DNA of 64,000 nucleotides, from positions 7,510,086-7,574,085 of the forward strand of contig NZ_CP072827.1 in the NCBI RefSeq assembly GCF_017916255.1. The letters are read 5' to 3'. Origin of the DNA: Streptomyces mobaraensis NBRC 13819 = DSM 40847 (GTDB lineage: Bacteria > Actinomycetota > Actinomycetes > Streptomycetales > Streptomycetaceae). Both the position numbers and the translations under genes were made by a program. Position 1 is the stretch's first letter; the number at the start of each line of letters is the position of its first letter. Below the pieces are notes generated by a model. It was not told the origin of the DNA, made no database searches, and worked only from the letters and a program-made list of their open reading frames with translations. Shown here piece after piece: positions 2,525 to 64,000 of the stretch.

Positions 2525-2539
2525 CCGAGGCACGACCCG

Positions 2540-2563
2540 CCCCGGGGCACCGCCGCCCCGGGG
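2540..2563 (+). terminator. GC hairpin after DUF2252 gene
   Basis: CCCCGGGGC and GCCCCGGGG form a perfect 9-bp stem with a 6-base loop, 16 bases after the stop codon. No T-run follows, as is common in Streptomyces. It lies in a gap between convergent genes and may act in both directions. Confidence 0.6.
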
Positions 2564-2647
2564 TCCGGCCACCCGCCGGAGCGTCACCGGACGCGAGCGG
2601 TAGCGGTCCGGAAAACGCCGCTGAGCCGAGGGAGAGGGGGCGGCCCC

Positions 2648-3390
2648 TCAGGTGATCTGGATGTTGGCCATCATGGCCATGTCCTCGTGTTCGAGGTTGT
2701 GGCAGTGGATCATGTAGCGGCCCCGGTAGCCGGTGAAGCGGACGAGGGTTTCGACGGTTTCGTACGGGCGTACGTCCACGGTGTCCTTCCAGCCGGCGTC
2801 CTTGGGCTCGGCGGGGCGGCCGCCGCGGGCGGTGACCTGGAACCGGGCGAGGTGGACGTGGACGGGGTGGTGGAAGTCGCTGCTGAAGCGCCAGCGTTCC
2901 ACGCTGCCCAGGCGGGGCCGGGCGAGGACGGTGTCGGGGTGGAACGGCTTGCCGTTGATGGTCCACATCCGGCGGTCCTCGCCGGCGGGGGTGCGGCGGA
3001 AGCCGAAGGTGCGGACCGGTACGCCCGTGGCGGGTGCGAGGTCCTCATAGCGGGTTGAGAGCCGGTCCGGCACTCGGCTGGTGTCCTTGGCCTTGCGTGC
3101 GACGTGGAAGCGCATGACGTCGCGCATCCGGCCTCCGGCGGCGGTGTTGCGCAGGGTGACGCGGCTGCCAACGGGGTGGTCGCCGAAGTCGACGACGACG
3201 TCGAACCGCTCGCCGGGCGCGATGTCGAGCGCGTCGTGGCGCTGGGGTGCGGGAAGCAGCCCGCCGTCGCTGCCGATCTGTACGAACCGTCCGTGCCCAC
3301 CGCCTTCGACGTCGAGCCGGAGCCGGTAGCGGCGGGCGTTGGAGCCGTTGAGCAGGCGGAAGCGGTAGCGGCAGCCGGCGACCTCGAGTT
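2648..3390 (-). pseudogene. 5'-truncated multicopper oxidase (C-terminal part)
   Basis: About 245 residues match the second and third cupredoxin domains of CotA/bilirubin-oxidase-type multicopper oxidases. RYRFRLLNGSNARRYRL is seen at the start, HPVHVH in the middle, and HCHNLEHEDM at the end, which supplies type 1 and type 3 copper ligands. A complete enzyme has about 450-500 residues. The first copper domain, with its HxH motifs, is absent. Upstream of about 3390 the frame is open but is proline- and arginine-rich and unlike the family. I infer an N-terminal deletion that leaves a non-functional remnant. The C-terminal end is intact. Confidence 0.75.
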
Positions 3391-3540
3391 GCGATGCGCA
3401 TCTCGCGCCGCCTGTTGATGGAGGAGGCCCGGGCCGTGGCGGCCGTCCGCGCGGCCGTGCGGGAGGTGGGCCTGGCTGTGCCGGGTCTGTGTACCGGCCT
3501 CCCCGCCCGTCGGTGTGCCTTCCGTTCGCAGGCTGACCTC

Positions 3541-3569
3541 TTGGCAAATAGTCTCCGCGCAGATAATCT
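3541..3569 (+). promoter_or_regulatory. Vegetative promoter with overlapping dyad
   Basis: TTGGCA (3541-3546) and TAATCT (3564-3569) are spaced by exactly 17 bases, close to the sigma-70/HrdB consensus. The dyad CAGATAATCTG (3560-3570) covers the -10, and CGCAGAT recurs just downstream. The downstream operon encodes a MarR-type protein, so this may be its autoregulatory operator (inference). Confidence 0.65.
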
Positions 3570-3602
3570 GTTCGCAGATGAGTCGAGCGAGGGGAACGCG
3601 TC

Positions 3603-4018
3603 ATGTGGAGCCACACCTACACGGGTGAGACGACGGCGGCACCGGAGGCGGTCTGGGCCGTGCTGCGGGATGTCGGCAACTGGGCGCTGTGGGACACCTC
3701 CATGGAGGCCGTGTCGCTGCTGGGGCCGTTCGAGGTCGGCAGCCGGGTCTCCATGACGCCGACCGGCCAGGAACCGATCGTGTCGGTGATCACCGAGATC
3801 GAGGAGAACGTGCGCTACGCGGACGAGACCGAGTTCGGCGGGATGGTGCTGCGGTTCAGCCACACGCTGAGCCCGCTGGCGGACGGCGGAACGTCGGTGG
3901 CGCACCGGCTGGAGATCTCCGGGCCGGACGCGGACACGGCCGGGCCCGAACTCGGCCCCGCGATCAGCGAGGACTTCCCGGAGGCGATGGCCGCCCTGTT
4001 CGCGCGGGCGACGGCCGG

Positions 4019-4022
<4 letters not shown>
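3603..4022 (+). CDS. SRPBCC (START/Bet v1-like) family protein, 139 aa
   Basis: The size and pattern fit a one-domain helix-grip protein: an N-terminal strand ending in PEAVWAVLRDVGNWALWD, central strands, and a long C-terminal helix. Such proteins bind hydrophobic ligands, and many act as polyketide cyclases, chaperone-like co-factors or ligand sensors. GAGGGG lies about eight bases before the ATG. The stop overlaps the start of the MarR gene (ATGA), so the two are translationally coupled under the promoter at 3541-3569. The ligand is unknown. Confidence 0.8.
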
Positions 4023-5102
<1,080 letters not shown>

Positions 5103-42938: not shown

Positions 42939-43625
42939 ACGGGGGCCGGTGCGCTGGCTGCTCGGGCGGAGACGTTATTCCTGCATGGAGCCGGTCAAAC
43001 GCGTGGACCGCATCGGTCCACCGCCCGTGCGCTCGGCTCGTCCGGCGGCCGGATCGTTCCGGTGGGTCGTCCCCGTCGGGGAACCCGGCTGGTGCGTCTG
43101 TGTCGCACTGGTGGTTTTGGCAGGCTCTATGGGTTTCGAAGGGACTGCCGCGCCCTGGCGTCTGCGTTTCTAAGGTGAACTGGCGATCTTTCCTTGGTTT
43201 GCTGCAGGGGTGTGGGTGTTGGTGCCTGTTTGTCGGGTGTCCTCGCTGTCCGTCTGTAGGCGGGTGACACCCCCAGGGAAGGATCCTGTCGGTGAATTCC
43301 GCTGCTGCATCAGAAGTCCGCTGTTCATGACCTCCGACTTCCGACCTCTGGTGTTGGGTGGGGGTGGGTTGTTCGTGGCTTTGCGTAGTGGCGGTTGTCT
43401 TGGTGGTGGTTGTCTCGGTTGCGGCACGCGTTGGTGGTGGTCTGGGTTTATGTGTGTGGTGGTGGCCGTTTGTGTCGAATGACCCCTGGATCGGTTTCTC
43501 TGTCGGGCGGCGTGTGGATCGGTTGTCTTCCTGGTTGTGGTGGTGAAAGCTTTGGGGTGTTTGGAAGTGCTGACGCGCAGGTTTTGATGCGGGATGTGCA
43601 TTATTTTTCGGTTAGGGTGCGGGGC
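42939..43625. other. Intergenic region, G+T-rich, no supported gene
   Basis: About 690 bases. The plus strand from 43340 to 43560 is extremely rich in G and T. A long minus-strand frame across it is Pro/Thr/His-rich and is a shadow. The right end contains an AT-rich stretch and the promoter of the next operon. Confidence 0.5.
43613..43618 (+). promoter_or_regulatory. -10 element of the Tap/Tpg-like operon (leaderless)
   Basis: TAGGGT fits the Streptomyces -10 consensus TAGRRT. It lies just after a rare AT-rich stretch and seven bases before the ATG at 43626, so transcription would begin at the start codon. No good -35 is seen, and there is no ribosome site. Confidence 0.5.
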
Positions 43626-43934
43626 ATGGGCATGGGTGTGGGTGTGGGTGTGGGTGTGGGGTTGGAGGAGTTGTTGCGGTTGACGGTGGCTGCGTTGATG
43701 CAGGCGACGGGGGAGTCGCAGCGGGTGGTGGCTGGGGTGTTGGGGTTGACGCAGACGCAGGTCTCGCGTCGGCAGTCCGGTGTTACGTCGTGGACTTTGC
43801 GTGATGTTGATGTGTTGGCCGAGTATTACGAGATGGCTGCGTTGGATGTGTTGGCGGGTCCGACCCGGGCTTGTGAGATGTTGCCTGCTGCTCGGCGGCG
43901 TGCTGTCAGGGTTGGGAAGGGGGTGGCTCGGTGA
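43626..43934 (+). CDS. Small helix-turn-helix DNA-binding protein, 102 aa
   Basis: After an odd Met-Gly/Val-Gly-rich start, the protein reads LEELLRLTVAALMQATGESQRVVAGVLGLTQTQVSRRQSG, a clear Xre/Cro-type helix-turn-helix, then a second small helical part (WTLRDVDVLAEYYEMAALDVLAG). It is the first gene of a three-gene operon and overlaps the next gene by GTGA. It could be the repressor of the operon or a DNA-binding partner of the telomere proteins. The start at 43626 is supported by the -10 seven bases before it. Confidence 0.7.
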   Translation: MGMGVGVGVGVGLEELLRLTVAALMQATGESQRVVAGVLGLTQTQVSRRQSGVTSWTLRDVDVLAEYYEMAALDVLAGPTRACEMLPAARRRAVRVGKGVAR

Positions 43935-46219
43935 GTGGTTTCGAGGCGATCGACTCGTTGTTGGCGGCTGTGGGTCCGCAGGCCGATCTGCCTGTTTCTG
44001 GGGTTCGTCGGGAGTTGCGGGAGTTGGCGGGTTTGTCCAAGGCGCAGGTGGCGAGGGCGTTGGGGGTGAGTCCGTCCACGGTTGCTGCGTGGGAGGGTGG
44101 CCGGGACCCGGTGGGTGAGTTGCGGGCCAAGTACGCCTATCTGCTGGACGGTTTGGCCGTGAAGTTCGCAACCGCACCTGCCCCGGCTGTGCCGGTGGCC
44201 GTGGGGCCGACTGTGACACCGGATCCCGCCGCGACCGCCGCAACCGCCGCGACCACCGCAACCGCTGCGTCCGGCGTTTCTGTGTCTTTTCCGGTGTCTG
44301 GCGAGTCTGGTGACGCGGATGAGGTGGAGGATCTCGTCACACCGGAGCCGTGTGTGTTGTGCGGGCATCCGGCCGGGACCCGGGTGGCGGGTTTCGCCCA
44401 GCATCTTCCTCCGGCCGACTGCCAGGCCGCCGCGCCCCCCTCGGTCCGGCCGGACACCGCTCAGTGCGAAAACCCCGCGACACCGCCCATCCCCACGACG
44501 CCGCCCACCTCGGCGGCACTGCCCGTCCTCACGACCCCGTCGGTCCCCATGCCCCCGTCGGCCCCTGCGGGACCGTCGGTCCCCACGGCACTGTCCACCC
44601 CAGCGGCATCGTCGGCCTCTGCAACCCCGTCCGTCTCTACGGGTTCGTCTGCCCCCATGACGCTGTCGGTCCCCGCTGCCTCGTCCGTGGCACCGTCCGT
44701 CCCCGCGGCATCGTCGTCTGCGGCACCGTCCGTCCCCGCGGCGCCATCCGCCTCTGGGGCGCCGTCGGTGCCGGCGGCTGCGCCGGCCCCTGCGATGCTG
44801 TCCGTCTCCGAGGCGTCGTCTGTCTCTGCGGTAGTGCCGCATGCCCAGCACGATGCCGGGTGTTCCAAGTCGGGCGGCTGCGATCCCGGGCTCGCCGCCC
44901 CTGCCGTGCCCGCCCCCCACACTGCCGCCCCTGCCGCCCCTGCCGCCCCTGCCGCCCCTGCCGCCCCTGCCGCCCCTGCCACATCCGCAGCATCCGCAGT
45001 GCCTGCAGCATCCGCAGTGCCTGCAGCACCCGCAGTGCCTGCAGCACCCGCAGTGCCTGCAGCATCCGCAGTGCCTGCAGCGTCTGTAGCGTCGGCCGTG
45101 CCGCCTCTGCGTTCCGGGGCGGTCGAGCCCGTGGCGTATCTCGCGCGGTCGGCGCGTCCTTCGCGTGCGACTCCTTCCCCTGACCGTTCCCCGGGGCGGA
45201 AGGCGTCTAGGCGTGCGTTCTCCCCGCCGTCCGGCCCGGCCGATCTGATCGGTCAGACGGTGCGGGCCGTGCTCGCCGAGCACCGCGGGGATGTGGAGGC
45301 GGCGACGGCCGCGTTGGTGAAGCGGGCGATCCCGGACGCGATGCGTCTGCTGGACGAGTCCCGCAAGGGCGCCCGCTATGACATCATCGCCCACCCCTGG
45401 ATCCCCGACATCCTCAGGAAGCAGACCTCCCGCGGCGCGGACCGGATCTGGGAGGCCCGCCCGAAATGGACCCGCCGCCATCTCCCGCCAGGGAAACACG
45501 AGGTGACCGCGCTCGATATCAACGGCGCCTACCTCTCCGCCCTTAAAACCCACCTCCCCCTCGGCCAGCTCGAGCACTCCGCCGGCCTGCCCCACGACCG
45601 CCGCCGGGCCGGCGTGTACCTGATCACCCCGCCCGTCTGGGAGCACGAGGAGGTGCTGCCGAACCCGATCGGCAACCGGGACGAACCGGGACCCCTGTGG
45701 GTGAGCGAACCGACCCTGCGCCTCCTGCTGCGTCTGTCCGGCCCGAAACACGCACTGTGTGACCCGCCGGTGATCCACGAGTCCTACACCTCCGGCGCCA
45801 CGGAGAATCTGCTGGAGAAGTTCCGCATCGCTTTGAAGGACGCACGCGACGCGGCGATCGCCGAGGGCGACGAGGTGGCGCTGGAGTACGTGAAGGCGAT
45901 GTACTCCAAATTCGTCTCGACGATGGGGGAGTCGAACTACAACCGGGAGCTGTACCGCCCGGACTGGATGCACATCATCCGTTCCCAGGCGTTCTCCAAT
46001 GTGTGGCTCAAGGCGCTCAAGGCTCACGACGAGGGCCTGACGGTCGTCCGCGCGATGGGTACCGACGAGCTCCACGTCATCGGTGACTGGCGGCGTGTCT
46101 TCCCCGAAGGCCGCGGCGTGAGCGAGGTCAAGGTCAAGGACACCTACACCGCCGGGACCTACACCGCCGGGACCGACGCCACCGGTCCCGCGCAGACGCC
46201 AGGAGGGGGAGAGGAGTAA
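43931..46219 (+). CDS. Telomere-associated protein (Tap)-like, HTH plus polymerase-like domain, 762 aa
   Basis: The layout follows Streptomyces Tap. An N-terminal helix-turn-helix (ELRELAGLSKAQVARALGVS, then VAAWEGGRDP) spans about residues 25-80. A zinc-knuckle-like CVLCGHPAG with later His and Cys lies near 138-160. A long Ala/Pro/Ser/Val linker (about 160-410) has tandem repeats. The C-terminal domain has EVTALDINGAYLSAL, a match to the Asp-rich polymerase A motif, then YVKAMYSKFVSTMG and WMHIIRSQAFSNVW, and AMGTDELHVIGD in place of the third acidic motif. Tap recruits terminal protein to telomeres. The sequence is far from the archetypal Tap as I remember it, so this is a divergent member or a functional analogue. 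Confidence 0.6.
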   Translation: MSGFEAIDSLLAAVGPQADLPVSGVRRELRELAGLSKAQVARALGVSPSTVAAWEGGRDPVGELRAKYAYLLDGLAVKFATAPAPAVPVAVGPTVTPDPAATAATAATTATAASGVSVSFPVSGESGDADEVEDLVTPEPCVLCGHPAGTRVAGFAQHLPPADCQAAAPPSVRPDTAQCENPATPPIPTTPPTSAALPVLTTPSVPMPPSAPAGPSVPTALSTPAASSASATPSVSTGSSAPMTLSVPAASSVAPSVPAASSSAAPSVPAAPSASGAPSVPAAAPAPAMLSVSEASSVSAVVPHAQHDAGCSKSGGCDPGLAAPAVPAPHTAAPAAPAAPAAPAAPAAPATSAASAVPAASAVPAAPAVPAAPAVPAASAVPAASVASAVPPLRSGAVEPVAYLARSARPSRATPSPDRSPGRKASRRAFSPPSGPADLIGQTVRAVLAEHRGDVEAATAALVKRAIPDAMRLLDESRKGARYDIIAHPWIPDILRKQTSRGADRIWEARPKWTRRHLPPGKHEVTALDINGAYLSALKTHLPLGQLEHSAGLPHDRRRAGVYLITPPVWEHEEVLPNPIGNRDEPGPLWVSEPTLRLLLRLSGPKHALCDPPVIHESYTSGATENLLEKFRIALKDARDAAIAEGDEVALEYVKAMYSKFVSTMGESNYNRELYRPDWMHIIRSQAFSNVWLKALKAHDEGLTVVRAMGTDELHVIGDWRRVFPEGRGVSEVKVKDTYTAGTYTAGTDATGPAQTPGGGEE
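44925..45083 (+). repeat. Tandem repeats in the linker of the Tap-like gene
   Basis: Two adjoining arrays: six or seven copies of GCCCCTGCC (9 bp) up to about 44983, then about five copies of an 18-bp unit containing GCAGTGCCTGCAGCA. Both keep the frame and code for Ala/Pro/Val/Ser steps. Their number could vary between strains without breaking the protein. Confidence 0.85.
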
Positions 46220-46791
46220 TGCCGCAGAAGACCATCGACTTCGGCAAGTACGGTGCCCGAGGGGTCAAGGGCAGCGATGCCGTGGCCCGCAAGCTCGACG
46301 AACTCGCGGGCGGCATCACCACCCCGGTGACCGTCAAGCGCGGCTGGACGGCACGCCTGCACTACCTGACGAGGACGGCCAGGTCCCGTCAGGCCGCACG
46401 GGAAGCCGGCCTGACGGTCACCGACCGGACGCTGACGGCGTGGCTGCAGGGCAGGCGATCGCCGTCGAAAGCGAACCTGGCCAGGATCGATGCCGCCTAC
46501 CGCACGGTGCGCCGGCACAACGTCGCCCGCCACCTCCTCAGACGCCTCAACCGCCAGGGACGGGGAACGCGGGTGGAGATCCACCCTCTGAACCAGTCCC
46601 AGGTCCCGCGCCCGCTGCAGCGCGTGGTGGAGTACCGCACTTTGAACGTGCGCCGTTGGGACGGGATCGTCGCCGCCTGGGCGACCGGCGACCGTCAGGG
46701 TCTCGAGGCCGCCTGGGATGACACGATCGTCGACCTGGGCTCGCAGTGGGGGCAGTACGAGTACGTCACCAACATCGGCTTCGCCGCGTAG
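46219..46791 (+). CDS. Tpg-like terminal protein candidate, 190 aa
   Basis: It starts at the ATG that overlaps the Tap-like stop by one base (TAATG), with AGGAGG-like purines before it. Residues 55-95 form a helix-turn-helix of Tpg type (RQAAREAGLTVTDRTLTAWLQGRRSPSKANLARID), followed by a basic helix (RTVRRHNVARHLLRRLNRQGRG). The last 75 residues are rich in Trp, Asp and Tyr. Size, HTH position and place after a Tap-like gene fit the telomere terminal protein, which primes end replication from a Thr or Ser. The sequence is not the archetypal Tpg. The alternative is an Xre-type regulator of an integrated element. Confidence 0.55.
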   Translation: MPQKTIDFGKYGARGVKGSDAVARKLDELAGGITTPVTVKRGWTARLHYLTRTARSRQAAREAGLTVTDRTLTAWLQGRRSPSKANLARIDAAYRTVRRHNVARHLLRRLNRQGRGTRVEIHPLNQSQVPRPLQRVVEYRTLNVRRWDGIVAAWATGDRQGLEAAWDDTIVDLGSQWGQYEYVTNIGFAA

Positions 46792-52106: not shown

Positions 52107-52753
52107 GCCCCCCGAACCACGACAGGCCGCAGGCAAGCCCGCGTTCGCGGCCACCGGACCGGCCCCGCGATCCGGTGGCCGATGAACCGCCCGCCCGACG
52201 TACGGCCTTGGGCGCTGCCCGGCAAAACCCGGCACCGCCTCCCAAGGCACGGGCAGCGCCTACGGGCCTACCGGCCGTAGTCCTTCCACGGGCACGCTCT
52301 GCCCGGGTGCCGGGCGGGGGAGTGCGTTCCCCGGCAGAAGCGACGGACCCCGGGTTGTGAGGTTCGGGGAAGGTCTCTCTAGGGTGTTCGGGTTTCCCCG
52401 CCGTTGATGTGGGGTTGTTTGCGTGCTGGTCGACGGGCCTGTCAGGCAGTTGATCTTGGTGGTGGTCTTCCGGATTCGGTGGTGGTGTGATTCCGGATCG
52501 GTCGGTGGTGTGTTCGTCGAACCTCCTTTGAGGCGTGTTCTGTAGCGCATGAAGGTGTGAGGCGGAGAGGAACGGAGATTTGTCACCCGTCCAAGTGATC
52601 GAGTGGGGTCTGGTCGGGGTGTCGGCTTTAACGTTTCATGCGTCGCGCCTGTTACGGGCCGTCATCATGAACTGCTCTGTGTGGAGCAGGGGTTGACTCC
52701 CCGGAGGCTGACACTGTGATCACTGCTTGGTTACCGGTTTGCTCTGTGCGTGT
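52107..52753. other. Intergenic region, G+T-rich in the right half
   Basis: About 650 bases. From 52370 to 52750 the plus strand is rich in G and T, like the 40-44 kb block. A minus-strand frame there is a shadow. The left end of the transposition module should lie here. I see TGTC starts at 52581 and 52620 but no convincing partner on the right. Confidence 0.5.
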
Positions 52754-54347
52754 ATGTCGGCTCCGGTGACGGCGGGAGATGCCCCTGGGGCCGTGGAGGG
52801 CGGGTTGGGACGGCATCGGGATGAGTTGCGGCCTGCCGCGGTGGCTCAGCTGTTGCGGCTGCGGGCCGCGGGGGAGTTGCGGACGGCACATGTGCGGCTG
52901 GTCGCTGACGCGGTGGGTGTGCACATCAGGACGGTGTGGACCTGGCTGGCGCAAGCGGAGGGGACCGGCAGTCCGGAGAAGCCGGAACGCCGCCGGTTCC
53001 GGGTCACCGAGGAGGTCATCGAAGTCCTCGCCGACTATCAGGGCAATGTGAAGCGCGCTCACGAGCGCCTGGTCGAGATGGCCGTGGCGGCGGGGGAGCG
53101 GCCGCCGGGTTTGACCACGCTGCACGATGCGATCGCTCGTGATCTCGATCCGGGTTTCATGGCAGGGCTGCGGGAGGGCATTCCGGCTGCGCGGGGGTTC
53201 GATCCGGCTTTCCAGCGGCCGGCGGTGGCCCGGAACCAGGTGTGGGAGGGCGACCACAAGCAGGCCGAGACCGTCGTGATGATGCCCGATGGCAAGCCGG
53301 CGAAGGTGTGGGTGACGTGGTTCGAGGACCGCGGTACCGGCTATGTGATGGGCTGGGCGGTCACCGCCGGCTCCGCGCACCGCGGCTCCGTCCTCGCCGC
53401 TGTACGCGCCTCCGTCCTCCGCGAAGCTCCTTACGGCCCGCCGGGCGGGCTGCCGCACTTGGTGCGCGTCGACGGCGGCGCCGATTTCCTCTCCAAGACC
53501 GTCCGACGGGCCTTCGGCCTCCTTGGCGTCCCGGTCCACCAGGTGCGCAGCGCCCGCCACAAGGGCGGTGTCGAGCGGCTGAACCGCACCAGCATGACCC
53601 GCTTCTTCGCCGACCTGCCCCGCTACACGAAAGCGCCCCGCCTCGATCACCGTCGCCGCCTCGGAGACACGGACCCGCCGCTGATGTTCGAGGAGTTCGT
53701 GCGCCTGCTGGGCGAGTGGGTCCACCAGCACAACACCGAGCACGTCATCGAGCGCACCGGGATGACCCCGCTTGAGGCCTGGCAGGCGGATCCCACCGAG
53801 ATCAGGCCCGAGCCGAGCGCGTCCGAGCTGCGCGCCTTCATGCTGGAGAGCGACCACCGGCCCCGTAAGATCACCAGTCACGGGTGGAGTTCAACCGCCG
53901 CGCCTATATGCCCGAGAACGGGGTGGGCCGGATCGGGCTCGAGGTCCGTGTGCGCTGGATGCCGCACCACACCCACGAGGTCGACCTCTACACCTTCCGC
54001 GGCAACCGCTACCTGGCCGGGCCTTCCTCAGCAACGAGGCCAGCGAGGAACTGCGGGCCAAGGTGCTCCTCGAACGCGACGAGCACAGCCAGGCCCTGCG
54101 ACGCGCCCTGAAACGCTCCGGCGAGCGCCGACGGGAACGCCACCTGCCGTCCACCCGGCCCGAGGTGCCCGTGCGCGCTGTGCGTATGACCGAGCAGGAG
54201 GCCCGCGCCGAACTTGAGGGCACCGCGGCGTCACCCATGCCACGACGCCAGCGGGCTACCGAGCGCTATGTCCCGCGTCTTGGCCCCGCCCCGGGCTGGG
54301 CCGTTCCCCAAGCCGCCCCTGACGAAGATTCTCTCGATGAGGAGTGA
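52754..54347 (+). pseudogene. Mu/TniA-type DDE transposase with two frameshifts
   Basis: An N-terminal helix-turn-helix (VADAVGVHIRTVWTWLAQAEG) leads into an rve-type integrase core with Asp in VWEGDHKQAE, Asp in VRVDGGADFLS and Glu in HKGGVERLNR. The Mu-transposase C-terminal barrel follows (VEFNRRAYMPENGVGRIG), but the frame changes near 53880 (a G seems lost in CACGGG) and again near 54020, before EELRAKVLLERDEHSQALRRAL. The last frame ends at 54347, where GTGA starts the ATPase gene. Without the shifts it would have about 530 residues, a normal TniA/TnsB-type size. Confidence 0.78.
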
Positions 54348-55129
54348 CCGTGATCAGTGAAGTGCCGCCCCAGTCTTGGGAGCCGGGGGACATGGAGCCG
54401 GAGTTCTACCTCGATGTTCCCGGCGCGAGGCTGGTGACGACCGATGTGCTGCTCCAGGTCCAGGACACGATCGCCGAGACGGTCGAGGCGAGGGCGATGT
54501 CGCTGATCTACGGCGAGTCCGGTCTGGGCAAGACGTTCGCCACCCGCGCCGCGCTCAAGACCATCGCACCGGATCTGTTGCTGTCCCTGCAGTTCGCCCG
54601 CTCGCGCCCGGGCCCGAAAGACCTGCGCGAGGAACTTTTCCACCAGCTGCGCCTGCCCGGGAAGATGCCGGGCACCGCCACCCCCTTGTACCGGCAGCTG
54701 ATGGCCGCGCTGCCGCGGCGCCCGTACGTGATCGTGTGCGACGAGGCCCAGCAGTACAACCGCGCCTGTTTCGAGCTGATCCGCAACCTCTGGGACAACA
54801 GCCGAAAACAGCGGCCGGCCGTGCTGTTCATCGGCGGGCACGAGGCGTACGACACCCTGCAGAGCGACCCGTCCCTGGCCTCCCGGCTGTGCGCCCGGCG
54901 CGAGGTGAAGGCCATGTCTCCCGAAGAAATGCTGCAGGTCATCCCGCTGACCCATGCCATCTGGGCCACTGCCGGCCCCGAACTCCTCGAGCACATCGAC
55001 GTGCGTCACGCCGACGGCTCGATGCGCGAGTGGGCCAAGGTCACCCACTACGCCCTGAAAGGCCTGAAGCACTTCAAGACGGACACGGTCGATCAGCAGG
55101 TAGCTGACTGGGCCCTGGCCCAGTGCTGA
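54344..55129 (+). CDS. TniB/TnsC-like AAA ATPase of the transposition module, 261 aa
   Basis: Walker A is YGESGLGKTFATRAAL and Walker B is PYVIVCDEAQQYNRACFELIRNLWD, followed by LFIGGHEAY (sensor-like) and ASRLCARREVKAMSPEEM with the Arg finger region. This fits the MuB/TniB group that chooses targets for a DDE transposase. The GTG overlaps the end of the transposase frame, and its own end overlaps the second ATPase. It is the only intact gene of the module. Confidence 0.85.
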   Translation: MTVISEVPPQSWEPGDMEPEFYLDVPGARLVTTDVLLQVQDTIAETVEARAMSLIYGESGLGKTFATRAALKTIAPDLLLSLQFARSRPGPKDLREELFHQLRLPGKMPGTATPLYRQLMAALPRRPYVIVCDEAQQYNRACFELIRNLWDNSRKQRPAVLFIGGHEAYDTLQSDPSLASRLCARREVKAMSPEEMLQVIPLTHAIWATAGPELLEHIDVRHADGSMREWAKVTHYALKGLKHFKTDTVDQQVADWALAQC

Positions 55130-55934
55130 CGGCTGCCCGGCGCGGCGGCACCGGCCCGTTGCTCGCCCCGGTGCCGAACCCCGTTGATCCCTCAGCGCAC
55201 TTCCTGGACGGTGAAGGCCTTCAAGGGCTGTGCACCCCCGGCCTCCTGGACGTTAGCCGCGCCGTCGAGGTCTGCTTCGCCCGGCGCGCGATGCTCTGTG
55301 TGACCGGTGCCTCCGGTGTGGGCAAGACCTTCGCCGCCCACGCCGTTGCTCGCGGGCCACCCAGCCCACCGGTCCATGCGTGCTCAGCCTGCCCTCCCGC
55401 CCCACCCCGGCCGACCTGCGCACGGCTTTCCATGACGCCCTTCACCTTCCCGGCCCGCCGCCCGACGACCCCGGGGTGTGCGACGCCGCCGTCCTGGACG
55501 CGCTGGCCGCCGGGCCCGCAGACCGTGGTGGTCGACGAAGCACACCAGCTTTCCCTCGCCGCCCTCGAGTACCTGCGCTACCTCTACGACAGCCTGCCCG
55601 ACGGCCTGTGCACCGTGCTGATCGCCGGAGAGAAGAGCGAGAGCGTGCTGCGCGATACGCCGATTGCTGGGCACCCGGGCCGCCCTGTGGTGCGAGATCC
55701 GCCCGCTGGATGCTGACCTGGTGCCACTCGCCGCCCGCCGCCTGCACCCGCTGTGGCGGCAGGCCTCCGGTGCCCAACTGCGCCATCTGGACGGCCACTT
55801 CGCGCACGGCCGGCTGCGGCCGCTGGGCCTTGCTCACCCACCAGGCCCGCCGTATCCGATCCACCGCCCCCGCCGCCTGCCGCAGATGGATCGAGCAGCT
55901 CGCCGCCCGCGTGGACGACGGGAGCATCGGGTGA
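55123..55934 (+). pseudogene. Second AAA ATPase of the module, several frameshifts
   Basis: Pieces lie in order but in different frames: AMLCVTGASGVGKTFAAHAVA (Walker A), PSRPTPADLRTAFHDALHLP, QTVVVDEAHQLSLAALEYLRYLYDSLPDGLCTVLIAGE (Walker B and sensor), LWCEIRPLDADLVPLAARRLHPLW, and ARRIRSTAPAACRRWIEQLAARV at the end. At least four one-base shifts are needed. Two different ATPases in one transposase operon recall target-selection and tagging partners in Tn7-like systems. The assignment of the role is inference. Confidence 0.65.
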
Positions 55935-57230
55935 CGCCGACGGTGCTCCGCTCCGGCCCCCATCCCGCCGCTCGCCCTCATCACCGACACGGCGGACGAT
56001 GTGGCGCTGGCCCGCGCGGCCCGCCACTGGGCCAACCCCCGCCAAGGCCGGATCACGGTCGATCCCACCCCCGCCACCGTCACTTCCGCGTTCCTTGCCC
56101 GCGACATCCTGGCCGCGCTCGGCCGCACCGCCTACGCACCCACCCACAGCCCGGTCATCACCGCACAACCGGCCTGGCGGGCCGCCGCCTGCTGGATCAC
56201 CATCGATGACATCCGCCAGCTGACCGTCCTGCGGGCGCACATGCTCACCCCCGAACGCACCGAACAGCTCTCCGTGCTCCGCGAGGTGACCGGCATCCGC
56301 CTGATCCTGATAGCCAGCGGCGCCACCACCGGCGAGCGTGCCCGCCTCACCACGCACCTCGCCGAAGCCGGCCTCGCCGGTGAACTCGAGCACCTCGACA
56401 CCCCCGCCGCCCTGCGCCTGTTCACCCAGCACGCCGCACCTCGGCCGAGCCTTCCGAGCCCGCGCCCCGCCCGGCAGCAGCCATCGACAACAAGATCCTC
56501 TGCCGCAACCGTGGCACACGGCGCTCCACCCGCCAGACGGTCCGCGCCCCGCCTCTTCGGCCAGCATCGTGCAGGGCTGCTCGCCGCCCACAACTGGCTG
56601 GCCTGGCACCGCGCCACCTTGCCGGCACTGCCCGACCAGCGCGACGTGGAGCTCTTCCTGTCGCGCCTGACTGCGCTCAGCCCCACCCTCGAGTACACCA
56701 CCGCCCGCATCCACGGCGCCCGGGACGGCTTCGCGGCAGCCGGCCTGCGCCTGGCCCACCCCGCTGATCTCGCCGCCGCCGGCGGCCCGGGCATCTGCAC
56801 GGTCCCGTTCACCGCCCAGGTCGCGTACCGCATCAGCCGGGCTGTACCCGGACCGACCCAGGTCGCCGCGCTAGCCGCCTTGTTGTGTACCGGAGCCGCC
56901 ACCGACCGCCTCGTCCACGCCACCGTCGATGACGTGCACCACGACGGCTCCCGGCTCGCCCTGCCCGAGCCTTTCAGCGGCGAGTACGACCAAGACCATC
57001 CGCCACCCCGCGTCTGGTACGCGATCCCGCCCCACGCACGGCCCTACCTGCAAGCCGCACGCCTCTTCCGCCAGCTCGAAGGCGCACCCGGCCACTTCCA
57101 CCTGTTCAGCAAATCCTTCGGCCACCGCCTCAAAGCCCTCGTGAAGGATGCCAGCCACCCCATCCCCACCCTCGACCACCCGCACCCCGGCCCAGCCTGG
57201 CACCACCAGGCCCGCCTGCTCCGCACATGA
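55932..57230 (+). pseudogene. Unknown module protein of about 430 aa, one early frameshift
   Basis: A GTG at 55932 overlaps the previous end (GTGA). The frame shifts near 55960 and is then open to 57230 (409 codons from the GTG at 56001). The N-terminal third has a Rossmann-like pattern (ACWITIDDIRQLTVLRAHML, GIRLILIASGATTGE). After a Pro/Ala linker, the C-terminal half resembles a tyrosine recombinase: LAALLCTGAATDRLVHATVDDVHHDGSRLALPE, then HLFSKSFGHRLKALV, but the first catalytic Arg is replaced and no clear Tyr is seen. I do not know this family. Confidence 0.55.
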
Positions 57231-57388
57231 GGAGCCGCACACCTCCCTCCCACACGGCCACAGGACCGCACGGACAGATTCCACGCACGTGAAGGCCGCC
57301 TCACCTAGACCGACAAACCGAGATCAGCCGTGACAGACCCACCCCGCGCGCAGGGGCGCGACGATAAGGATGAGGACAAGGAGCTGCA

Positions 57389-57913
57389 ATGCCGGACACG
57401 AGCCTGCCGAGAAGGCCGTGGAACACACGGTGATCAGCGCTGACCACGTACACACTGCGGAGACGGCCCAGCAACGCCAACGGACGTTCGTTCCGCCTTC
57501 CGAGTCCTACCTGCCTGGCGTCCAGGAGCCGGCGGGCGACGCCCTGCTGGACCAGCTGTTTTATGCGACGGTGGACGAATGCCCTGATCCCACCTGCCGC
57601 CCGCTGCTCCTCGACCCGCGTCGCGGCCAGCGTAGGGGCGACGCGCAAGCTGGTGGACTGGGCATGCTGGATCACGTCCGAGGTGTACGGCGGGCTTCCC
57701 GAGGAGCTCGTGGACGAGGTCGCGTCGGCGGGCACCATTTTCCGCCCCTCGACCACCTTCCGCCGACACGCTGCGGAATACCACAACCAGGGGCCACCCT
57801 TCGGCGTTATGTACGACGCGTGCAGTGCCGCGCAGCGTCGGGAAGCGGCGGACAACGCGGTTGTCTTGGTCGATGGGCTACAGGTGTGGTGGACGGACTT
57901 CCTCTACCAGTGA
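57389..57913 (+). pseudogene. Hypothetical gene with two frameshifts
   Basis: AAGGAG lies six bases before the ATG at 57389. Coding-like segments follow in successive frames: EKAVEHTVISADHVHTAETAQQ to ALLDQLFYATVDECPDPTC, then from about 57615 TRKLVDWACWITSEVYGGLPEELVDEVASAGTIF and ADNAVVLVDGLQVWWTDFLYQ to the stop at 57911-57913. Shifts are near 57400 and 57615. No known domain is apparent. Confidence 0.5.
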
Positions 57914-57960
57914 CCGGCCCCTGCCTGGGCCCGCCGCCCGGAGCGTATGACGTGCTCGCC

Positions 57961-58362
57961 TCAGCCTTCCGGCCGGTGTGCCTCCCTCACCCAGGGCAGT
58001 CCGGGTCCGTGGAACACGGCATGCAACTCGGCCGGGTAGCTGTCGAACCCGGCCCGTACCGGGTACGCCGCTTGCGGAGCTGAATCTCGCGTCCGGTAAT
58101 GACGGGCCGGTAGGAGGCGGCGACGATGATCCTCCCCGCCTCATCGACGACAGGCCCGGCCTCCTCCAGGTGCTGCCGGGCGGCGAGGACGATTTCCATG
58201 GCCCGCTCACTGCGGCTGCGCCGCGCCTGGGGCCCCCGCCGCGCGGACGCGTGCGTCGCCGGCGGCGGGGCCCATCCGCAGATCCTTGAGCGCCGCTCGC
58301 TGCGCCTCGGCCAGGCCCTTCCACCGCACATGCTGCGTTTGCACCCATTTTCCGAGGCCACT
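57961..58362 (-). pseudogene. Helicase-associated (HA) domain remnant
   Basis: GLGKWVQTQHVRWKGLAEAQRAALKDLRM is the pattern of the HA repeat found at the C-terminus of Streptomyces terminal helicases. Two shifts later come EIVLAARQHLEEAGPVVDEAGRIIVAASY and PAELHAVFHGPGLPWVREAH, ending at the stop at 57961. It looks like the decayed 3' end of a second helicase gene, with the body lost. Confidence 0.5.
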
Positions 58363-58704
58363 GCCGCGGAACCACCGTGGTCCGGCAAGGAGTCCGGCCC
58401 GTCGGCCGCCCTCGGCCCGGAACAGGCGAAGTCGCACGAGCTGGCGGTGCCAGATCGCATTCCAGACCGCGTCGGGCGGCAGGCCGATCCGCGCATGTGC
58501 GAGGGCGTAGACGACCAGGACGTGGTCGCGGGCCTGCCCGATCAGCTCGCGCGCCTCGCCGAGTCCGCCGCCTGCCGCTTCGTGCGCGTCGTCACTGCCC
58601 GGCTCCTGGACGGCGTCTGCGGCGTTGAGCGCGGCGTGGGCCCGGTGCAGTGGGAGGTGGAGGCCCTGGAGCCGACCGAACTCCGGAGCCCTCGCCGCCG
58701 TCAC
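58207..58704 (-). pseudogene. Hypothetical helical protein fused to the HA remnant
   Basis: The minus frame from about 58704 carries FGRLQGLHLPLHRAHAALNAADAV, then GEARELIGQARDHVLVVYALAHARIGLPPDAVWNAIWHRQLVRLRLFRAEGG, a convincing run of helices. It has no own stop and reads into the HA-repeat remnant, so its end is lost. The GTG start at 58704 is tentative, as GAGGAGG lies too far upstream. The other strand also has long frames here, but with poorer composition. Confidence 0.45.
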
Positions 58705-58978
58705 CCCGTACGCCGACGTGACCTCCTCGCCCGGCAGATCGCCCGCGAGGAAGAGCAACGCTGCGCCCTGGCCGCCTTCCTGGACGGCTGAGACGCGGCA
58801 GGCGGGGGAGCACCCTTGTAGCGCTGTTCCGGCGCGGGGGCGCTCAGCGGGTGGCAGTGCCGGGCGCAGCGATGCCAGTGGAGAGTGCCGTCCTTCGCGC
58901 GCAGATCCCAGCCCACTTCTGGATCGGGCAGGGGCCGGGGCGGATGGCCGCAGCCCGAGGACTGCGGCCATCCGGGAT

Positions 58979-59200
58979 TTACCGGCGGATCTGAATCGTG
59001 ATGGCGGGAGCCGCAACTGCGAGCAGAGCCAGTCCGACTGGTGGGGAGACTGTCAGGGCGATGGCCGTGCCGCTCACGGTGCAGGCCGCTGTGAAGCCGA
59101 AGGTCACCCACCTCAGGGAACGGCTGTAGTTGGCACCGCCTTCTTCCTGGAGCTCGGCTCCCGGGCTGGGCTCGGTGTGCTCTTCTGCTGTACGTTCCAT
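58979..59200 (-). CDS. Small membrane protein, 73 aa
   Basis: From the ATG at 59200: a Glu-rich N-terminal 30 residues, then two hydrophobic stretches (WVTFGFTAACTVSGTAIALTV and VGLALLAVAAPAITIQI) and a short basic end. The frame extends upstream to 59305 without better signals. Small two-pass proteins of this kind are common near ends of linear replicons; the function is unknown. Confidence 0.55.
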   Translation of the reverse strand: MERTAEEHTEPSPGAELQEEGGANYSRSLRWVTFGFTAACTVSGTAIALTVSPPVGLALLAVAAPAITIQIRR

Positions 59201-59383
59201 TGACAGAGGTACCGCCTCTTTCGCGATTGGGAGGCCCGGAGCACCAAGTGCTTGCCGGCGTCGATGCTCCGGAGCCCCCGATTGGACGCGGCTGGAGAAG
59301 CCCACCAGGCCGCCTGTGGGGCCCTGTTCAGCGCCTCACACATCAAATGATGTAGCCCGTCTGAGGGGTCGTCCGGTACTCTC

Positions 59384-59477
59384 AACTACGGATTAACTCG
59401 CATGACATGCTGACCAGAGAAACCGGAAATGGGTGAGTAATTGATGGATCACAGAGCATGAGAATCAATCCGTAGTT
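59384..59477. promoter_or_regulatory. AT-rich region with 11-bp inverted repeats
   Basis: AACTACGGATT (59384-59394) and AATCCGTAGTT (59467-59477) are exact inverted repeats 72 bases apart, in one of the few AT-rich stretches of the window. The right arm ends 18 bases before the ATG of the next gene. Operator pair, iteron-like replication element or looped regulatory site are all possible. Confidence 0.55.
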
Positions 59478-59495
59478 TCCAAAAGGTGGATCGAG

Positions 59496-60569
59496 ATGCG
59501 TCCCAAGGACGGCAAGGTCGACACACGCCTTGCACACCTTCAGACCCTTCGCAGCCGCATGCTCGGGGGCGTCAACCAGGTCATGCGCCGGATCTGGGAG
59601 CAAGGGCAGAGGCCCGCCTCCGTCCGAGTCCGTCAGGCCTTCTACCGGCTTGACGAAATGAGGATCTTGGAAGACGAGCGGAAGCCGCTTCCGAAGGAGG
59701 AGCAGCCGTTCGCGGCCCGCATGGTCACCCCGAAAGGACTCCAACTCCGGCTCATGCTGACGATGCTGTACGCCGCGCAGTGCGCCGTGGGGCCGGGCAA
59801 GCAGTGGGGCACCCCCTATCCCGTGGAGTCGACGGCAAAGCACCCGGTGTCATGGATGAGCCTGTCGGCTTCTGTGAGCCAATACGCCGGTCCTGGCATC
59901 CAGCTGGCGTCCGAGGACGTCAACCGCCGACGCCAGATCACCCAAGCCTTGAAGACGCTGGAGGAGATGGCCCTCGTGCGGGCCAACACCGGACCTGGCC
60001 GCTTCAGCACCGGATTGCAGCTCCTGTGCGAGAACGGGACCAGCACCGTCAGCTCGGCCATCCCGTACACCGCCGCTGACGACACTGAGCCGTACATCGA
60101 GATCCCGGCCGAGTTCTTCACCTGCGGCTGGGTGCATGTGCTCACCAACAGCGAGATCGCCGCCTTGCTCATGTGGTTCGACCGTCTCAAGTACGCCGGC
60201 GCCGAAGTCGGCGCCGAGGAGGGCGACCCGCTCACCATTACCTACGTCACCGGCGATATAAGGCAGGGCCTTTACGGGTTGGGGCGGAAGGCATACGAGA
60301 CGCACCAGGCCCTCGACGCCTACCAGCTCCTCGACGTCATCAGGCCCGAGAAGCGCTACGACTCCGGCAAGTGGGAGGGATATTCGCAGGGTGAGTCGGA
60401 CCTGCTCTGCCACCGAGTCTCCCTCGCCCCCGCCGGCTTCGACCGCGATGCGGGAGAGATCGTGGAGGACGTACTAAAGCGCCGTGACACCGGCGGGTAC
60501 TGGGCACGACCCATGTTCAGCACGCCGAAGCGCTTCGACCGCTTCAGCATGGTCTCCGCTGCCGAGTAG
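59496..60569 (+). CDS. Unknown protein near the terminus, possible winged-helix replication protein, 357 aa
   Basis: AAAAGGTGG lies eight bases before the ATG. The protein is soluble and mixed alpha/beta. The stretch from PKGLQLRLMLTMLYAAQ to WMSLSASVSQYAG, then RRRQITQALKTLEEMALVRAN, looks like a winged helix as in plasmid initiators and MarR-like proteins, and a second such unit may start at VHVLTNSEIAALLMWFDRLKY. I do not recognise the family. Its place between an AT-rich inverted repeat and the terminal helicase, and its less extreme codon bias, suggest a gene of plasmid or telomere biology (inference). Confidence 0.65.
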   Translation: MRPKDGKVDTRLAHLQTLRSRMLGGVNQVMRRIWEQGQRPASVRVRQAFYRLDEMRILEDERKPLPKEEQPFAARMVTPKGLQLRLMLTMLYAAQCAVGPGKQWGTPYPVESTAKHPVSWMSLSASVSQYAGPGIQLASEDVNRRRQITQALKTLEEMALVRANTGPGRFSTGLQLLCENGTSTVSSAIPYTAADDTEPYIEIPAEFFTCGWVHVLTNSEIAALLMWFDRLKYAGAEVGAEEGDPLTITYVTGDIRQGLYGLGRKAYETHQALDAYQLLDVIRPEKRYDSGKWEGYSQGESDLLCHRVSLAPAGFDRDAGEIVEDVLKRRDTGGYWARPMFSTPKRFDRFSMVSAAE

Positions 60570-60838
60570 AGCGGGTGTCGGACCGCCTTCGGCCCTCCAG
60601 CCCAGACCAGTGCTACCGCCGCGAACACGTGAACGGCGCTACACCCCTCCGCCCTGCCTTCCGGACAACAGTGTCCCGGTGCGGGGGCGAAGCTGACTCC
60701 TATGAAGTCACGGAAGCCCGGCCGGCCACGCGCCAGACGGCATCGCCCGGCCGGCCCACGATTCACCACGAGGACAACTGAAGCGTCAGACAGGTGGAGG
60801 GCCAGACCTCCGGGCGATGCCATGGCCAATCCTCACTG

Positions 60839-63490
60839 TCAGGTGAGGAGGCCGAGGCGTTGCGCTTCCTGACGCTGGGTGTCGGTGAGGCGGTCGCGGC
60901 GGCTGCGGGTGTTGCTGCGCCAGATGCCGAGGCGGACGTGTTCCTCGCGGAGCCCGTCGTCGCCGTGATCGATACGGATGGTCTCCCGGTGCGCACGCGG
61001 GACCCGCACATGCCCTTCGCGCGCCTTGTACTGGCGCAGAGCCGCTGTGCCGCGTTCCCATGGGGTCGCCGTGGCCGGCAGCACGACGGCACCGGCTGCT
61101 TCGAGGGCCGGGAGGGCGGCGGTTTCGAGTTCACCGGCCGGCACGCGGATGCCGAGCACGGCGAGCCGCTCGCGCTGACCGGCGCTCAGGCCCTGCCAGG
61201 AAAGGTGCTGCTCGGCGATCCAGGCACCGACATCTTCCCCGTCGACCATCAGGCCGGGCCGGAGGTCGGCCAGCTGCGCCCCACCGTCCAGACACCATTT
61301 CACCTTCGCCCAGCGCCGCTGCCAGGCCAGGGGCCACTGGGGATTCCAGTCGGGGTCGATCGCCTCCAGCAGCTCCCGCCGCCGCTGCGCCCGCTCGGGC
61401 TTCTTCCCCAGGCCGTGGGGCTTGCGCAGGTTGGACAACTCCTGACCCACGGGCTGCCCTTCGAAGACCGCTGCCAGAGGAGCGGCGAGAGTGCCGTGCT
61501 CGTCGTAGTAGCGCCGGTAGACCGCGATCTTCGCCGCGAACCGCGCGTCGGCCCCCTCCCACTCCATGCCGAGCTCGTCCAGCAGCTGGAACCTCCACGC
61601 CCGCAGCGTCCCGTCCCGGTGCGCCCGCCGCTGCTCGGCGCACCACTGCCCCAGCGCATAGTCCCTCTCCCAACCGTCACCGGGCTGCGCCTGACTGCTG
61701 CGCGGGACGCGTTCCTGCAGAGGGACGCGGGCGTGCCCGTGCCCGGCCACCCACCGGCACAAAAGGTGGTAGCCGGTCAGCCATACCTCGGACTGGGGCT
61801 GCAGAACCCGGGTACGCAGGAACCGCGCAACCGTGATCGCATCGCGCGGAGCGAAGAACCGCAGCAGCGCCGCATCCCCCGGCATCCCCTCGCACCCGGC
61901 CGCGCCCCCGTCCTTCTCGGCGCCCTGCTGTTCCTGGCCTGTGCCGGTGTCGCGGATGTACTGGGGGTCGTCGACGAGGACCTCGTCGGCGGTTCCGCGG
62001 CCGCTGTGCTCCTGGCGCAGGACGAGTTTCTCGATGATCTGCTCATCGTGGGCGCGCAGCGCCTGGAGGACAGCGACCAGGGGCCGGTAGCTGGGGGAGG
62101 ACACCATGTCCTGCGGGTCCTCATCCGGCCGGAGGAAGATAGGCACGAGGACCCGCGCGATCTTTCCTTCGCCGGGCGTCTGCCGTAGTGCGCGGCCGGT
62201 GTTCTGCACGACATCGACCACACTGCCGCGGGTGTCGGCGAACACCACGGCGTCGACACCGCGTCTCCCGGTGATGTCCGCGCCCTCCCCGAGGACCTTG
62301 CACGTCGCCAGGAACGACATCACCGTCTCGGCGCCGTCGTCGTCGAGCCCGTCGGCGAACCGGCCCACCACCTGCCGACGGTAGCCCAGAGGGTGCTCAC
62401 CGGAAAGCCATTCCGCCACCGTCCTGGCAGGGTCCGGGTAACGACCAGGGTCGCTCTCGTACAGGTCGGTGGCGACCGAGGGCAGGCTCCGGGCGAAGCC
62501 CATCGCGTCCCGGGTGCGGTGGTGGAAGGAGAGCACAGACCGCAGCCCGCTCTCCTTCCAGCGCGTCAGCAGCGCGGCCTGCAAAGCCGCCAGCCGCCGC
62601 TCCCGCGCCTGCTGCTCCGTCAGCTCGTCCTGGGCGGCAGGGTCGCGGATCTCCAGCACGTCGATCTCGAACCGGGCCAGGACACCGCGCTCGATCGCTT
62701 CCAGCAGCCCGAAGCCGATCTGCCGCCCGTAGATCTCCTCATCGTCCATAGAGGCGACCAGCTGCCCGCCCACCCCCTCCTCCCCACGAGCCGGCCCCGC
62801 CTTGCCGTCCACGGATTCCGGGATCTCCCACAACCGGGGCGTGGCCGTCATGTACAGCCGGCGGTCTGCCCGGATGCGCGTGTTGTCATGGATGATGGCC
62901 CACGGCTTCCCCCGCGCTCCGGAGGTGCGGTGCGCCTCGTCCACGACGGCGAGGTCGAACGGAGCCAGTTGCTGTCCGTACAGGCCTGCCATGGCCTCTT
63001 CCAGCGGTCCCGGCACTATCTCGCCGCCCCGGCGGCGGTACGCGAGCGAGGCGTAGGTCGCGAAGACCGTGACCGGTCCGCTACCGCCCCACAGCGCCAG
63101 CCGCGGCGCACTCGTGGTGCACCGTACCCCCAGCTCCTTCAGTTCCTCCGCGTTGCCTATCGGTGAGCAGACTGCGATGCCCGGCTCGGTGTGGCCGGCG
63201 GTCCTCCACCACGCCACTGTCTGGACCAGTAGGTCGAGCGTGTGGACCATCACCAGGACCCGCCGGCGCGGGGCCAGCCGTCGTGCCACTTCCCGGCTGA
63301 TCCATGTCTTTCCTGAGCCGGGCGCGGCAGCAAGGGTCACCCGTAGCCCTTTCTCTGGGATCCCGGCCCCGGGTTGGGGCTGGAGTTCTGCCACCACCTT
63401 GTTGAGGAGGTCGGGTTGATGGTCACGTGCGGGGATGACGGGCTCACCGAGAGAGCGGGCCTGTCGGTCGGACATGGGGGCCGTGGGCAT
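60839..63490 (-). CDS. Terminal DEAH-box helicase with helicase-associated repeats, 883 aa
   Basis: GGAAGGAATTC precedes the ATG at 63490. Superfamily 2 motifs are complete: LAAAPGSGKTWISREVARRL (I), VVDEAHRT (II), TATPRLW (III), VLSFHHRTRDA, CKVLGEGADI (V) and VQNTGRALRQ (VI). The C-terminal 350 residues hold helicase-associated units with Leu-Gly-x-Trp cores (YALGQWCAEQRRAHRDGTL, VGAWIAEQHLSWQGLS, LGIWRSNTRSRRDRLTDTQ). Helicases of this type lie next to the telomeres of Streptomyces chromosomes and plasmids and are linked to conjugal transfer or end maintenance. It is transcribed away from the terminus. Confidence 0.88.
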   Translation of the reverse strand: MPTAPMSDRQARSLGEPVIPARDHQPDLLNKVVAELQPQPGAGIPEKGLRVTLAAAPGSGKTWISREVARRLAPRRRVLVMVHTLDLLVQTVAWWRTAGHTEPGIAVCSPIGNAEELKELGVRCTTSAPRLALWGGSGPVTVFATYASLAYRRRGGEIVPGPLEEAMAGLYGQQLAPFDLAVVDEAHRTSGARGKPWAIIHDNTRIRADRRLYMTATPRLWEIPESVDGKAGPARGEEGVGGQLVASMDDEEIYGRQIGFGLLEAIERGVLARFEIDVLEIRDPAAQDELTEQQARERRLAALQAALLTRWKESGLRSVLSFHHRTRDAMGFARSLPSVATDLYESDPGRYPDPARTVAEWLSGEHPLGYRRQVVGRFADGLDDDGAETVMSFLATCKVLGEGADITGRRGVDAVVFADTRGSVVDVVQNTGRALRQTPGEGKIARVLVPIFLRPDEDPQDMVSSPSYRPLVAVLQALRAHDEQIIEKLVLRQEHSGRGTADEVLVDDPQYIRDTGTGQEQQGAEKDGGAAGCEGMPGDAALLRFFAPRDAITVARFLRTRVLQPQSEVWLTGYHLLCRWVAGHGHARVPLQERVPRSSQAQPGDGWERDYALGQWCAEQRRAHRDGTLRAWRFQLLDELGMEWEGADARFAAKIAVYRRYYDEHGTLAAPLAAVFEGQPVGQELSNLRKPHGLGKKPERAQRRRELLEAIDPDWNPQWPLAWQRRWAKVKWCLDGGAQLADLRPGLMVDGEDVGAWIAEQHLSWQGLSAGQRERLAVLGIRVPAGELETAALPALEAAGAVVLPATATPWERGTAALRQYKAREGHVRVPRAHRETIRIDHGDDGLREEHVRLGIWRSNTRSRRDRLTDTQRQEAQRLGLLT

Positions 63491-63834
63491 GATGAATTCC
63501 TTCCAGACCATCAGGAGGCGAAGGCCAACAGAGGAGGAGGTCGCCGGAGGGGGTGGGCGTATCCCCAAACCTTACGGATGATGCATCCGGTTGCCGGGGT
63601 AGCATGGAGAGGTGAGTCGCAAGTTCACGCTACCGGAACCCGGTGATCGTCGGGGTGGTCGGCCCTCCTCTTTCGGGTGAACCCTCAGGCCGTCGTTCTG
63701 GACATCGCCCTGGAACAACGGCAGAAGACCTGATGGGTGGTCAGCCATGGAACAAGAGGAGAAGTACCAGCAATCTCCCAGGTTGTAAAGCCAGTTACTC
63801 GCACACCGCCCCCATCCCGCAGCTGGCTGCTTTA
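63491..63834. other. Subterminal non-coding region
   Basis: About 340 bases between the helicase start and the first telomeric palindrome. It is less GC-rich and holds the helicase promoter (not resolved). No ORF with coding character was seen. Confidence 0.55.
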
Positions 63835-64000
63835 GGAATTCGCGGAGCGGATTCCGTCTGGCCGGATCGCGGAGCGATCCGAGCCGCAGACAACGGAGTT
63901 GTCTGCACCGGCCACGGAGTGGCCGGCCAAGCCGCGCGGAGCGCGGCGACCTTCCGCCGCGTAGCGGCGGCGCGTCGTGTCTGCGGAGCAGACCGCGCGC
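63835..64000. repeat. Telomere-like terminal palindrome array
   Basis: Seven palindromes follow one another: 63835-63855 (one mismatch), 63864-63880, 63886-63906, 63908-63926, 63931-63947, 63954-63970 and 63979-63993. Stems are 6-9 bp, and every loop on the plus (3'-ending) strand is GGA or GTA, that is, a GNA triloop. This is the architecture of Streptomyces telomeres, where the 3' overhang folds into hairpins during end patching. The sequence does not begin with the archetypal CCCGCGGAGCGGG. Either the replicon ends at 64000 or a few bases are missing. Confidence 0.82.

Follow-up and report, generated by a model that had tools for sequence, protein, structure and literature searches.

The window analysed here comprises 64,000 nucleotides of Streptomyces mobaraensis NBRC 13819 = DSM 40847 (bases 7510086–7574085 of one 7,574,085-base contig, NZ_CP072827.1). 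It closes with an array of hairpins on the + strand (at this end, the 3' strand), and about 17 kb inward it carries two genes, that for a 762-amino-acid (aa) protein overlapping that for a 190-aa protein (Table 1). The two genes are strong candidates for the machinery that copies telomeres of the Sg2247 type. Literature is cited by PubMed Central number, each citation resting on part of the paper concerned.

Table 1. Coordinates of the telomere elements and associated genes in the window
Feature	Position	Strand	Description
Small helix-turn-helix (HTH) open reading frame (ORF)	43395..43934	+	Just upstream of large gene; homologue fused to large protein N-terminus in L190
Large protein, 762 aa	43931..46219	+	HTH, alanine/proline-rich linker, C-terminal polymerase-like domain; candidate Tap analogue
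C-terminal domain, residues 439-745	45245..46165	+	Predicted phi29 DNA polymerase-like fold; D529, D712 conserved 24/24
Small protein, 190 aa	46219..46791	+	Candidate terminal protein (TP)
Terminal inverted repeat, right copy	52356..64000	.	11,645 bp, identical at left chromosome end
Terminal helicase	60839..63505	-	ResIII/DEAD and helicase-associated domains
Hairpin 1	63835..63855	+	9-bp stem, one G.T pair, loop GGA
Hairpin 2	63863..63881	+	8-bp perfect stem, loop GGA
Hairpin 3	63886..63906	+	9-bp perfect stem, loop GGA
Hairpin 4	63908..63926	+	8-bp perfect stem, loop GGA
Hairpin 5	63931..63947	+	7-bp perfect stem, loop GGA
Hairpin 6	63954..63970	+	7-bp perfect stem, loop GTA; most conserved terminal module begins here
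GCGTCGT box	63972..63978	+	Between hairpins 6 and 7; also in both other telomere subgroups examined
Hairpin 7	63979..63993	+	6-bp perfect stem, loop GGA
3' tail CGCGCGC	63994..64000	+	Last base common to pSCAT, pSHJG1 left end, pSGZL

The chromosome end and its telomere class

The window end is a genuine Streptomyces-type linear-chromosome telomere. Base 64000 is the final contig base (7574085), the first 501 bases of the contig are an identical inverted copy of the window end, and the terminal inverted repeat is exact, without a mismatch. Used as a query, the 501-bp end matched only the two chromosome ends within the genome, which rules out a dispersed repeat. The original prediction had placed a linear-replicon telomere here and proposed looking for an inverted copy at the opposite end; it had named sequence running past base 64000, or an array identical to a dispersed chromosomal repeat, as contrary evidence. 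The inverted copy is present, neither contrary sign was found, and the reading stands.

Seven hairpins are packed into the last 166 bases, where they span 63835–63993, six with GGA loops and one with a GTA loop, the last ending 7 bases before 64000. Six stems are perfect (6–9 bp) and the first includes one G.T pair, in agreement with the predicted run of closely spaced GNA-triloop palindromes. Only eight perfect GNA-loop hairpins of at least 6 bp occur on the + strand of the window, six of them in these 166 bases; when the same segment was dinucleotide-shuffled 5000 times, 4939 shuffles gave none, 60 gave one and 1 gave two. Folding of the 3' strand, a check that had also been suggested, gave a z score of −5.84 for 63800–64000, with 0/200 shuffles equally stable. 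Across ten aligned ends (the window, two plasmids and seven genomes), 25/54 pairs change on both sides with pairing kept, a count that leans towards the window because the structure was taken from it; the shuffled mean was 11.3, the observed count was reached in 0/500 shuffles, and sliding the partners gave 5–16 pairs vs 25 unslid.

Judged by sequence comparison, this telomere is a new member of the known, little-understood Sg2247 class. A blastn search with the last 200 window bases matched 58 of 72,556 plasmid records. The match to pSCAT is 81.1% identical along 184 bases of the query, and those to the pSHJG1 left end and pSGZL are 97.9% and 76% identical along the last 48 and 55 bases, respectively; all three share with the window a module of GTA hairpin, GCGTCGT, GGA hairpin and CGCGCGC that stops at the same base. 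Both pSCAT and pSHJG1 are published Sg2247 members (PMC8743542). The window end shows the features of the class: it lies at a replicon end, its similarity is highest at the 3' end, and it has several hairpins with GGA/GAA/GTA loops in the last 150 bases. Compared with the Sg2247 telomeres of S. rimosus ATCC 10970, S. cattleya pSCAT and pSHJG1 (PMC8743542), it is alike in terminal module, last base, GGA/GTA loops and position, with no essential difference; only the sequence of the inner stems diverges, by changes that compensate one another. The suggestion of a separate telomere class was therefore dropped, a new class being ruled out by the pSCAT and pSHJG1 matches. The non-archetypal character of the end was confirmed: the right end of pSHJG1, an archetypal telomere that has palindrome I and GCA loops, gave only a 10-base chance match, and palindrome I, allowing ≤1 mismatch, occurs three times in the window, which is chance level, and never at the end.

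A second telomere subgroup (query from NZ_CP107859.1) is richer in A and T yet keeps the GTA hairpin, the GCGTCGT box and the GGA/GTA loops; its query matches pSGZL, a member of the other Sg2247 branch in the tree of PMC8743542, and a S. rimosus plasmid. The plasmid collection labels pSGZL (NZ_CP003988.1, L189) as circular, and telomere matches lie at both ends of the record (20–136 and 237377–237493); from these matches, pSGZL is probably linear. The Sg2247-type end of pSHJG1 (CP003276.1) is the left one in the record and the right-hand one in PMC8743542, so that orientation differs between records or text. Several replicons also hold inverted 45–70 bp copies of the terminal module 0.7–3.5 kb inside (e.g., NZ_CP108874.1 925–971 and NZ_CP108236.1 3480–3526), and two facing copies at G282:C1 1695–1983 resemble a fused telomere pair.

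The gene pair and its predicted polymerase-like domain

Scans of the gene pair against Pfam, NCBIfam and PHROGs returned only HTH matches and a weak Tap match; the small protein has a weak HTH and no assigned family. Annotations of the pair in relatives read "helix-turn-helix protein" and "transcriptional regulator". The pair forms a conserved operon: among 80 named loci from the TP alignment (the best 80 of 222), the conserved C-terminal domain of the large gene was found in 62, directly upstream of TP in 61. The preceding HTH ORF is tied to the same system by the fusion of its homologue to the large protein in L190. Three threonines of TP (T51, T71 and T117) are invariant in 38 aligned relatives. 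On plasmids, one group of TP relatives shows 58–84% identity and the other about 40–54%; subgroups I and II are 46–47% identical to each other. Close relatives of a third TP subgroup in S. albidoflavus have, among the matches listed, locus tags that end in 00005, marking the first gene of a contig. For S. albus J1074, a Tap-domain gene beside a pseudogene was described, and its authors assumed an unidentified pair (PMC3937824).

Archetypal Tap/Tpg were not detected in the window genome. The Tpg model (NCBIfam NF047541), which matches 229/295 related genomes, found nothing there at E ≤ 0.001, as in Sg2247-type genomes (PMC8743542), and the Tap model (NF047542) scored only 61 bits in the genome and 58.7 bits on the large protein itself, confined to its N-terminal HTH region and far below the 600-bit cut-off. 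The pair nevertheless resembles Tap/Tpg in its large–small gene order, the N-terminal HTH of the large protein and the length (~185–190 aa) and HTH of the small one, and profile comparison shows remote similarity of TP to Tpg in the HTH region (E 1.9e-4 at a probability of 47%) and of the large protein's C-terminal domain to Tap (E 3.5e-5 at 72%); 0/60 column shuffles reached either score. Unlike the window pair, which lies far below the NCBIfam cut-offs, Tap/Tpg serve another telomere class. In the passages of PMC8743542 concerned, Sg2247 genomes show no similarity to Tap, Tpg, Tac or Tpc. By description only, the pair also recalls Tac/Tpc of SCP1, likewise a protein pair for a non-archetypal end (PMC4513846).

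The pair could be kin of GtpA/GtpB, a known terminal-protein pair of S. griseus (PMC7205883). It may equally well belong to the widespread GtpA/GtpB system of S. griseus IFO13350; the machine would then be known already, and novelty would be confined to its use at Sg2247 ends. GtpB–GtpA homologues about 50% identical to those of S. griseus are reported from strains with GGA-loop telomeres (PMC7205883), a level that fits the identity between TP subgroups I and II; subgroup II is found in S. griseus NCTC13033, and the large-gene family also occurs on the RLB1-9 plasmid NZ_CP041652.2. This likeness too is one of description only; GtpA was not identified by name among the best 120 of 903, 376 and 230 entries of the protein lists. 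Against it, PMC8743542, in the part cited, distinguishes the Sg13350 class from the Sg2247 class and found telomeric proteins for neither.

Structure prediction of the C-terminal domain of the large protein yielded a phi29 DNA polymerase-like fold, that is, the polymerase-domain fold of family-B protein-primed polymerases. The predicted resemblance extends to the order of motif-like segments and to the proposed partnership with a terminal protein; D529 and D712, putative counterparts of the catalytic Asp residues of motifs A and C, are put in register with phi29-type motifs only by a profile alignment that is itself insignificant. In contrast to phi29 polymerase, which copies a whole genome, the large protein lacks an exonuclease domain and significant sequence similarity, and its system is proposed to patch ends. 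Several observations weigh against a polymerase assignment. Only one of five models was confident (mean predicted local distance difference test score 78.4; others 63.0 and below), with a root-mean-square deviation of ~7 Å, and the DTD motif reads GTD, its first Asp being replaced by Gly. Profile A5 against seven phage polymerases gave E 0.43, with 22/40 column shuffles equal or better; no Pfam or PHROGs polymerase family was matched at E ≤ 10, no sequence match was found in the PDB, and the TP model retrieved no known fold at E ≤ 0.001. Proof of polymerase kinship by sequence was attempted and failed, profile comparisons being no better than shuffles; the archetypal Tap profile likewise gave no support against phage polymerases.

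It is rather unlikely that the fold is real and the domain catalytically dead, or a primase-like remnant that tethers TP while host polymerases synthesize. The GTD motif, the non-significant sequence profile and the need for DinB1 or DinB2 in S. lividans end patching (PMC4513846) would fit such a remnant, but D529 and D712 are conserved throughout the alignment, and Tap and Tac add nucleotides to their own terminal proteins without another polymerase (PMC4513846). The same source notes that Tap and Tac make DNA without a recognizable polymerase motif and that B-family polymerases are not encoded in Streptomyces, and actinobacteria typically lack such enzymes (PMC12926913, 2026). We tentatively entertain, at somewhat less than even confidence, a broader proposal: Streptomyces telomere-associated proteins, archetypal Tap included, may be truncated protein-priming polymerases of family B that came from viruses or mobile elements and turned into chromosome-end enzymes, so that ends would be copied by a phi29-like enzyme.

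Co-occurrence of telomere and gene pair

Among the same 295 Streptomyces genomes, telomere I (the window end, E ≤ 1e-6) was matched in 36, the TP family (E ≤ 1e-10) in 116 and archetypal Tpg (E ≤ 1e-6) in 229. TP was present in 35/36 telomere-I genomes vs 81/259 others, and Tpg showed the reverse (14/36 vs 215/259). With telomere II (8 genomes) and telomere III (3 genomes; query from NZ_CP108380.1) added, TP occurred in 45/46 vs 71/249. The co-occurrence p values (4e-15, 7e-8 and 3e-20) are optimistic because the species are related and telomere matches at any position were included. TP and Tpg were found together in 65 genomes, TP only in 51, Tpg only in 164 and neither in 15; these 15/295 genomes are therefore likely to have other telomere systems or circular chromosomes.

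TP lies within 20 kb of a telomere on the same contig in at least 8 genomes (e.g., telomere 49–93 and TP 549–1121 in G015; 1–62 and 3565–4134 in G184). The TP subgroup of pSGZL matches its telomere subgroup, and S. rimosus NRRL WC-3904 combines telomere II, located at a contig end, with a subgroup II TP and lacks Tpg. Of the 58 plasmid records with a telomere I match, 43 carry it ≤400 bases from the record end, and by a count made by eye at least 37 of these 43 have the TP or large-gene family among the matches listed. Neither gene appears among those matches for CP108493, CP109080, CP108583, CP003276, CP003721 and CP108586; a whole-record search, made for CP003276, was negative. At least 25 of the 35 telomere II records are among the 60 listed TP matches, by the same tally.

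Other observations weigh against a dedicated telomere role for the pair. The counts of telomere matches took in all positions of a genome, not just contig ends, and some matches are internal; the one telomere-positive genome without the TP family, G263, has its match 3.2 kb inside a contig. Conversely, the TP family occurs in 71 genomes in which no telomere was matched, and 18/80 named TP loci lack the large gene. Plasmid pSHJG1 (CP003276) bears a Sg2247-type telomere at one end and has no TP family in cis, while the subgroup II reference plasmid NZ_CP107859.1 and the subgroup II TP carrier S. griseus NCTC13033 also have Tpg. The HTH domains, the regulator annotations and the many TP-positive genomes lacking a telomere match would suit regulators of linear or conjugative mobile elements that travel with telomeres without acting on them. 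We regard this as improbable, as the pair is nearly always present where the telomere is present and is negatively related to Tpg, the telomere and TP subgroups match, and the proteins show a predicted polymerase fold and remote similarity to Tap and Tpg. An assembly artefact in place of a physical terminus is very improbable: an assembler can duplicate identical repeats, but the same last base recurs in pSCAT, the left end of pSHJG1 and pSGZL.

The helicase that had been noted beside the telomere is indeed encoded there, and is probably an accessory whose part in end copying is putative. Related helicases with helicase-associated domains adjoin the telomere or the TP operon on pSHJG1 (540–3116), pSGZL (2171–4891) and TP subgroup II plasmids, and relatives at E ≤ 1e-50 occur in 381 plasmid records. 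Genes at 52727–55716, inside the terminal inverted repeat, presumably represent a TniA/TniB-type transposon; between them and the helicase lies a 357-aa ORF (59496–60569) with no Pfam or NCBIfam match.

Proposed end patching and its implications

It is likely that the window ends in a Sg2247 telomere whose end-patching machine is encoded at 43931–46791, with the 190-aa product as terminal protein and the 762-aa product as phi29-like priming protein. We infer DNA binding, a priming residue, catalysis and specificity as follows. Internal bidirectional replication would leave a 3' overhang on the lagging strand, here the + strand. As is general for Streptomyces telomeres, this overhang would fold, here into the hairpin array suggested by fold stability and covariation. 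The HTH part of the 762-aa protein may bind the hairpins, and the C-terminal domain of this protein, as an exonuclease-less phi29-like family-B polymerase domain, may start DNA synthesis on the terminal protein. The first nucleotide, complementary to the last base, is predicted to be dG; it would be joined to a hydroxyl group on the small protein, which would end covalently on the 5' end. Hairpin binding and dG addition are modelled on the archetypal system, in which Tap binds both the folded 3' overhang and Tpg and attaches nucleotides to Tpg at Thr114 (PMC4513846, PMC3572947).

For Sg2247 genomes, telomeric proteins had not been found and undiscovered end-patching systems were considered likely (PMC8743542). 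Searches of open-licence literature, including the relevant parts of PMC12926913, PMC7544198, PMC11476376, PMC11260486 and PMC7205883, brought up no report of the pair as the Sg2247 machine, of other proteins of Sg2247 ends, of the phi29-like domain or of Tap as a B-family polymerase. Should the pair prove kin of GtpA/GtpB, novelty would lie in its connection with Sg2247 ends and in the polymerase fold. A named gene pair is now testable as the Sg2247 end-patching machinery. If a Tap-like protein contains a phi29-like domain, this would account for how Tap and Tac synthesize DNA without a visible polymerase motif, and the pair, if it acts as proposed, would mark those linear replicons that are able to exchange ends.
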